Positions 19,056-19,746 of a DNA stretch of 33,986 nucleotides are shown here, piece after piece. The notes beneath the pieces are model-generated. The model had not been told where the DNA came from. It saw only the letters and a program-made list of their open reading frames with translations, and did no database searches. The first letter of the stretch is position 1. Every line of letters starts with the position of its first letter. This DNA comes from a virus, in the IMG/VR virus record IMGVR_UViG_3300028743_000020, positions 1 to 33,986 of that record; one strand, given 5' to 3'. Position numbers and translations under genes: made by a program.

Positions 19056-19502
19056 TTAGAGTTTACCAGTTCCGTTACAACTCGGACAATATATTGCACC
19101 TCTTCCATTACATTTTGGGCAGTTGCCTAAATTACCTGTACCATTACAGCGACGGCATAATTTTTTTCCTGTTCCTTTACAGACTGAACAATACAGCATT
19201 TGATTCCCGGATGTGTTATATCCCCGTCCATTACATACAGAACAATTACCAGCACCAAAACAAGAACCTGCGCCTTTACAGTCTGGACAATTTATAACAT
19301 CAGATCCATTACATTCAGGACAGATAATTACTCCTTTGCCGTAGCATTGACGACAAGAATAAGTAGGAGCAGGGGGAATAGAAAAGCCCGCAGGTGGAAT
19401 GTTCGGAGAATAATAATTGGGAACAATAAAACCGTTCGCATCTTGAGCATAAGAACTTAGTCCCAAAATAGCGAAGAAGAAAGACATAATAACTTTTTTC
19501 AT
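19056..19502 (-). CDS. Secreted DnaJ-type zinc-finger (CxxCxGxG) protein without a J domain
   Basis: The start at ATG 19502 (MKKVIMSFFFAILGLSSYAQ) gives a clean signal peptide. The longer open frame to 19688 runs through the structured leader and is rejected. After a Pro-rich linker (about residues 24-48), the protein is a chain of eight CxxCxG motifs, such as CRQCYGKG, CPECNG, CPDCKGAG, CSVCNGRG, CKGTG, CRRCNGTG, CPKCNGRG and CPSCNGTG. In DnaJ four such motifs bind two zinc ions, so this protein could bind about four. There is no J domain, so it is not a classical Hsp70 partner. Its place outside the cytoplasm suggests metal binding or thiol/redox-linked folding. It is set between phage genes and is preceded by an elaborate leader. 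Confidence 0.72.
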   Translation of the reverse strand: MKKVIMSFFFAILGLSSYAQDANGFIVPNYYSPNIPPAGFSIPPAPTYSCRQCYGKGVIICPECNGSDVINCPDCKGAGSCFGAGNCSVCNGRGYNTSGNQMLYCSVCKGTGKKLCRRCNGTGNLGNCPKCNGRGAIYCPSCNGTGKL

Positions 19503-19555
19503 AATGGCGAATTTTAACGATTCTTCATTGCAGTCAATATGAAGAGTTTGTTTAA

Positions 19556-19708
19556 AAAGAAGTGGACTGCCACCTATGTTACTCGTTAGGCATCGCCAAA
19601 CACCCGTATATACGCACAGATTAACAGCCCACCCTATGGTCGACATCTGTGTCCTGTATATACTTTTCTTTGAGATTGGCGATTTCAACGAGTATAAGAC
19701 ACTTCTTT
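19556..19708 (-). promoter_or_regulatory. Long structured leader RNA (candidate switch) of the CxxCxG gene
   Basis: Five perfect paired blocks nest around a 23-nt loop. On the + strand AAAGAAGTG (19556-19564) pairs with CACTTCTTT (19700-19708), ACTCGTT (19581-19587) with AACGAGT (19687-19693), and ATCGCCAA (19592-19599) with TTGGCGAT (19676-19683). GTATATAC (19606-19613) pairs with GTATATAC (19656-19663), and CACAGAT (19615-19621) with ATCTGTG (19645-19651). This is 39 base pairs in 153 nt, with uneven internal loops. It lies between a consensus promoter and the ATG at 19502. The 3' arm of the RNA can also pair with 19505-19520, the bases just before the start codon. No known RNA family was recognised. 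Confidence 0.7.
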
Positions 19709-19738
19709 ATTATTTCAAAATTGTCCGTTAGGACATTG

Positions 19739-19746
19739 CAAAGATA
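19739..19746 (-). promoter_or_regulatory. Promoter (-7 box) of the leader and CxxCxG gene
   Basis: On the minus strand the bases read TATCTTTG followed by CAA, an exact TAnnTTTG match and the same word as the ParB-like operon's promoter. A TTGC about 21 bp upstream is a weak -33 element. A small hairpin, TGTCC/GGACA at 19722-19735, lies around the expected transcription start and could be an operator. The leader to ATG 19502 would be about 230 nt. Confidence 0.65.

Follow-up and report, generated by a model that had tools for sequence, protein, structure and literature searches.

In trp- and his-type attenuators, the pairings 1:2 and 3:4, the latter beside a U-run, exclude the pairing 2:3, with a promoter upstream and the gene behind. 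The RNA element described here shares this design, since it has mutually exclusive 1:2, 2:3 and 3:4 helices and a U-run directly after 3:4. Unlike these attenuators, it has no coding leader that we could find across the element, it carries an extra covarying rod of P1 and core that reinforces 2:3, its genes do not belong to one pathway, and one genome holds up to 18 copies. LoaP/UpxY-type and put-type antitermination leaders are also structured leaders before accessory operons, and Bacteroides has UpxY proteins. Our element, however, lacks a recurring partner gene of this kind at its side, and it has conserved competing helices instead of a fixed binding hairpin. Integron attC sites resemble it in that structure is conserved more than sequence and neighbours are exchangeable, but the element differs in its promoter-like box, its U-run, its strand-specific competing helices and its lack of association with an integrase.

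Structured motifs scattered in Bacteroidota genomes are known from Flavo-1 and other Bacteroidetes RNA motifs (Weinberg 2010; Rfam), whereas neither the window studied here nor other members of our family have an Rfam match. Flavo-1 occurs in both orientations relative to transcripts, unlike the element (PMC9723704). The Flavobacterium transcriptome in the same study contains structured leaders without Rfam hits. A human-microbiome screen reports palindromic Bacteroidetes structures of 80-132 nt (HMP2_4078, HMP2_4205 and others), one of them near phage domains (PMC8040213). These candidates might be partial sightings of the element family; in their short descriptions no switch appears (PMC8040213). 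A full-text literature search, with supplements outside its reach, returned no description of the element family.

The window, a virus record of 33,986 bases, comes from a gut phage of the tailed dsDNA type, recognised by its terminase, portal, major head and tape measure. The initial annotation had placed in it a long hairpin, a promoter box, a start codon, a segment next to the start that mimics one hairpin arm, and a small hairpin, and all of these are present at those places (Table 1). The predicted transcript (19738-19555) folds at -58.7 kcal/mol, compared with -39.6 +/- 3.8 kcal/mol for shuffled sequences (z -5.0), indicating that the hairpin is beyond chance. A terminator-like site was called at 19575-19560 in the window, where one such site was found and 0.9 are expected by chance. 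Upstream of strand A the window offers only ATG-TCC-TAA, and the GGN-GTTTGGCGAT-N'CC element could form a local hairpin in the C:D state. The 148-aa protein encoded downstream scores 30.3 bits against Pfam DnaJ_CXXCXGXG, slightly below the cut-off of 32.7. Starting at TTG 19688, a minus-strand frame (19688-19056, 210 aa) stays open across the hairpin and on into this gene, which a coding test attributes to chance. A large serine recombinase gene (Resolvase, Recombinase and Zn ribbon; 21680-19977, minus strand) lies directly upstream of the leader and its gene.

Table 1. Features of the leader and its gene in the window.
Feature	Position	Strand	Basis
Nested hairpin, between box TATCTTTG and ATG 19502	19708-19556	minus	read in sequence
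Outermost helix, 9 bp	19708-19700 x 19564-19556	minus	sequence
Helix P1, 9 bp; 5' arm TACTCGTTG, 3' arm TAACGAGTA	19694-19686 x 19588-19580	minus	9/9 pairs covary (66 sequences)
Core helix, 8 bp within an 11-bp helix; 5' arm ATCGCCAA	19683-19676 x 19599-19592	minus	covaries in members found by covariance model
Helix, 8 bp	19663-19656 x 19613-19606	minus	sequence
Helix	19653-19638 x 19633-19614	minus	sequence
Apical rod 5' arm, B:C state	19638..19663	minus	B:C z -26.1
Putative promoter -7 box TATCTTTG, TAnnTTTG type (Bacteroidota)	19739..19746	minus	sequence; family enrichment
Small 5' hairpin TGTCC-TAAC-GGACA, near predicted transcript start	19722..19735	minus	fold; varies across family
Strand A ('1'), partner of B in alternative state	19691..19702	minus	A:B cis/trans z
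Strand B ('2'), partner A or C	19649..19664	minus	cis/trans tests
Strand C ('3'), partner B or D	19615..19634	minus	C:D z -25.4, -14.6
Strand D ('4'), partner C	19560..19578	minus	cis/trans tests
GGN-GTTTGGCGAT-N'CC element around core 3' arm (19599-19592)	19589..19605	minus	GGN/N'CC covarying
U-run TTCTTTTTA, end of the element	19554..19562	minus	U-run counts in family
Start-proximal TCGTTA-AAAT-TCGCCA, mimic of 5' arm	19505..19520	minus	present in window; not conserved
Small hairpin	19545-19522	minus	present in sequence
Downstream gene, 148-aa ORF, Cys-rich, CXXCXGXG-like repeats, probably secreted	19056..19502	minus	signal peptide by eye

The window hairpin is a member of a large RNA family and is not unique to this locus. 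A distant search of phage records gave a single match, in Bacteroides phage BS-TP1, which covers exactly the hairpin; it lies at an unrelated locus and precedes an unrelated gene. The two RNAs have the box, the fold and the U-run in common and differ by compensating changes, and the BS-TP1 RNA also folds better than its shuffles (z -5.3). A pattern of the invariant core recovered about 28 further phage loci and at least 119 loci in genomes; among the genome matches listed, nearly all are from Bacteroidota, with a few from Lentisphaerae and Kiritimatiellae. A first covariance model, built from 66 loci, found members with different cores. With a second model, the element was detected in 66 of 396 Bacteroidota genomes, in 47 of 195 genomes of a second phylum, presumably that of a Kiritimatiellia member, and in none of the 200 genomes of a control phylum, that of a Mesorhizobium. 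A pattern match in Mesorhizobium itself is not a family member. Together, pattern scans and covariance models yield more than 100 distinct members, some in phages and others in chromosomes; the highest copy number in one genome is 18 (G013), and three others have 9 each. These counts are a lower bound of the family size because the large searches used strict filters. Searches of viral contigs with an exact 21-mer and with a 3'-end pattern had zero matches, and a plasmid search found no element.

The initial annotation recognised no known RNA family, and Rfam 15 agrees: at gathering score the window has no match, and 20 member loci match only a TPP riboswitch and a tRNA, both elsewhere in the loci. 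On the element, permissive Rfam scans give nothing beyond chance-level matches. A 6S-like or other known RNA was ruled out on these grounds. In the genome with 18 copies, two Acido-Lenti-1 RNA matches lie face to face (L275:4133-4320), one of them above the gathering score.

We asked where the members lie relative to genes, using mechanical ORF calls near the loci. According to the initial annotation, a repeat scattered in genomes without a gene behind it would refute the proposed switch; the element is scattered, yet in 87 of 95 cases the first ORF behind it shares its strand (87:8). The distance from the end of the U-run to the ORF start has a median of 59 nt. For about one quarter of members, the stretch from the core to the next same-strand ORF exceeds 290 nt, and ORF calls there are crude. 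Of 102 members, 53 have TAnnTTTG, a consensus named in PMC9723704, no more than 100 nt upstream, compared with 6 expected after shuffling. Similarly, 79 of 103 members carry a U-run after D, compared with 19 after shuffling, and it is present in 43 of the 47 members of an independent set. Genes upstream of the element are on the same and the opposite strand in a ratio of 56:28 (about 2:1). The element itself is non-coding: intercore lengths are spread over the three values modulo 3 (39/33/31), and each frame is open in only 9-13 of 103 members. The uniform spacing rules out a peptide, such as GVWRY/VFGD, encoded through the core.

To examine which strands pair, we compared how well a segment pairs with its own partner and with partners from other members (cis/trans test; 103 non-redundant members). 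Segment A precedes the core, the two cores enclose B and C, and D follows the 3' arm of P1. Pairing is strongly specific for A:B (z -22.9), B:C (z -26.1), C:D (z -25.4) and P1 (z -37), whereas the control pairings A:C (z +0.6) and B:D (z -0.3) are unspecific. A second set of 47 independent members, found by covariance model rather than by exact core and including 18 from one genome, gives A:B -12.3, B:C -4.1, C:D -14.6, P1 -24.8 and core -14.8, with controls around 0. A closing helix A:D, present in the window, was rejected: its z of -6.7 in the first set falls to +0.3 in the independent 47, and by this measure the outermost 9-bp helix is not conserved across the wider family. About 70% of the bases paired in A:B and C:D overlap B:C, so the states compete. 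From these comparisons, A:B, B:C and C:D emerge as three mutually exclusive helices, each evidently kept by sequence-specific complementarity.

Further tests place this conservation at the RNA level. B:C is part of a long rod that contains two further covarying helices. Imperfections in the three helices are G-U far more often than A-C (140:16, 142:27 and 130:7), indicating that selection acts on the transcribed strand as RNA. In the 66-sequence set, 92.8% of cells are paired, compared with 36-43% when partners are slid by 1-3 columns. Across the family, pairs of P1, the core, the apical part and GGN/N'CC covary. GGN and N'CC are complementary in 66 of 66 sequences, the variable pair being UA in 42, CG in 20, GU in 2 and UG in 2. 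The core is invariant in this set because the search pattern demanded it; in members found by covariance model, both sides of the core helix change with almost no broken pairs (for example CTGGTA/TACCAG and TCGGCA/TGCCGA).

Minimum-free-energy folding of growing transcripts gives an order to these helices. A:B is present in 90% of members when the transcript ends at B. Once C is complete, B:C has replaced it in 96%, and by the U-run 98% have formed the rod. No other state is as stable as the rod in 100 of 103 members, and it is better than A:B plus C:D by a mean of 11.5 kcal/mol, loop-loop pairing not counted. The C:D loop is long, about 40 nt, and is partly filled by the GGN hairpin.

We consider the element a member of a family of portable structured 5' leaders and, on the comparative evidence, most likely a transcription attenuator, a reading that we hold with moderate confidence. 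From the promoter, the polymerase would transcribe A, B, C, D, the U-run and the gene in this order. In the off state, A would hold B, leaving C free to pair with D, and C:D beside the U-run would end transcription. In the on state, C would take B from A, P1 and the core would zip up the long rod, and the polymerase would read past unpaired D into the gene. We infer the terminating role of C:D, the assignment of the on state and a tuned choice between the two. At equilibrium, readthrough would be the default, with termination favoured by some factor or by a slow exchange of strands; since the rod is 11.5 kcal/mol more stable, the off state may be rarely reached without a factor. The long C:D loop, the variable gene distances and the lack of a shared function among the downstream genes count against an attenuator. 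That C:D is followed by a U-run points to transcription attenuation and not to masking of the start codon.

The genes behind the element are very diverse and include DNA methyltransferases, Mrr, HsdR-like and PD-(D/E)XK nucleases, GIY-YIG and DUF2971 proteins, BspA-type LRR proteins and other secreted proteins, lipoproteins, HTH proteins, small membrane proteins and phage cargo. This extreme diversity leaves the zinc or metal signal proposed in the initial annotation without support. Neighbour families each recur in about a tenth of loci at most, which rules out one common partner gene, for example for a recombinase, a reverse transcriptase or a nuclease. A small-molecule riboswitch is not suggested either, as the downstream genes form no coherent regulon and the conserved positions lie in covarying helices, except for A-rich bases flanking the core, rather than in unpaired aptamer nucleotides. 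Small membrane proteins of the ARKKGRS...GWFILS..LACLG type recur behind several of the closest relatives of the window (L019, L070, L133, L166), and at several loci (L069, L095, L271, L272, L276) the gene immediately behind the element encodes a small XRE/Cro-type HTH protein, similar in size from locus to locus. One unrelated member (L101) also precedes a DnaJ_CXXCXGXG-like Cys-rich gene, at most a curiosity.

Elements that are 90-93% alike occur between unrelated flanks (L102/L136, L118/L124, L056/L074). In phages L003/L035 and L042/L048, the upstream sequence is 95% identical and is then followed by a different element and an unrelated cargo gene, which identifies an apparent cargo-exchange hot spot at the element. 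Near-identical elements with unrelated neighbours and these cargo swaps indicate that the module is portable. Since the element moves together with exchangeable cargo genes or in front of them, it probably supplies them with a ready-made regulated promoter-leader. Tandem pairs in the same orientation occur at L085:2492-3365, L086:1508-4715 and L028:769-1087, with a gene between the copies in L085 and L086.

The anatomy of the element, with promoter-like box, strong structure and U-run, is also the full anatomy of a small RNA. A free-standing RNA could start at the box and always end at the U-run, with the folds serving maturation or target pairing via the loop UUUGGCGA, and the gene would merely be nearby. 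We regard this as unlikely: in 87 of 95 cases a same-strand gene follows, and its distance is short and nearly constant; a plain small RNA does not need conserved strand competition; and the 18 copies in one genome have differing core loop sequences, which excludes a common target. A passive 5' rod that guards the mRNA from decay, its alternative pairings being leftovers of a repeat origin, would agree with the rod being the most stable state in nearly all members. However, A:B and C:D are as specific as B:C and are kept by G-U-biased substitutions in divergent members although superfluous for a rod, and A:D, expected under simple repeat retention, is not conserved, which makes a purely passive role very doubtful.

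Structure kept with little sequence, exchangeable neighbours, the tandem element-gene-element loci L085 and L086 and the cargo swapped behind near-identical phage sequence (L003 and L042) are also what a DNA-level recombination site of a gene-cassette system would produce, acting as an attC-like folded strand with promoter and U-run incidental. Against this, box and U-run are conserved at fixed sides, no recombinase or other gene recurs alongside, and the G-U bias fits RNA, though G-T in single-stranded DNA could mimic it. Neither an adjacent integrase nor cassette arrays were found; no neighbour family recurs, and upstream genes are just 2:1 same-strand (56:28), unlike integron arrays. We therefore give a recombination site little probability. 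The initial annotation had proposed that translation may be switched by pairing of the hairpin's 3' arm with the region around the start codon. Its general idea, an RNA switch with mutually exclusive folds in the 5' leader, is supported, but its second fold is not, as the conserved competition is that of A:B and C:D with B:C. Likewise, of its two helices, those of the hairpin covary among homologues (9 of 9 P1 pairs in 66 sequences), whereas the start-codon helix is not conserved. The 6+6 bp pairing exists in the window sequence only: only 5 of 103 members have TCGCCA near the start, and pairing of the 3' arm with its own start region is hardly better than with that of another member (mean -9.98 vs -9.50 kcal/mol). 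This refutes start-codon pairing as a family property and makes a translational switch highly improbable.

Returning to transcription attenuation, we tentatively propose, with somewhat less than even confidence, that the family is a new class of portable promoter-attenuator module in Bacteroidota, a second phylum and phages. Such modules would be swapped among accessory genes as these arrive, among them phage cargo, restriction-modification and surface proteins, and would place them under common control through RNA folding during transcription, each copy having its private core and P1. If so, one RNA-level control that current annotation misses would act on many genes that Bacteroidota of the gut and the environment have acquired horizontally, restriction systems and phage cargo among them, which would explain how newly acquired genes are controlled on arrival. 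The element would also serve as a model of attenuation driven by folding, in a phylum where few RNA regulators are known, and as a compact leader part for Bacteroides engineering, and the family is large and varied enough for mapping by mutation and covariation.
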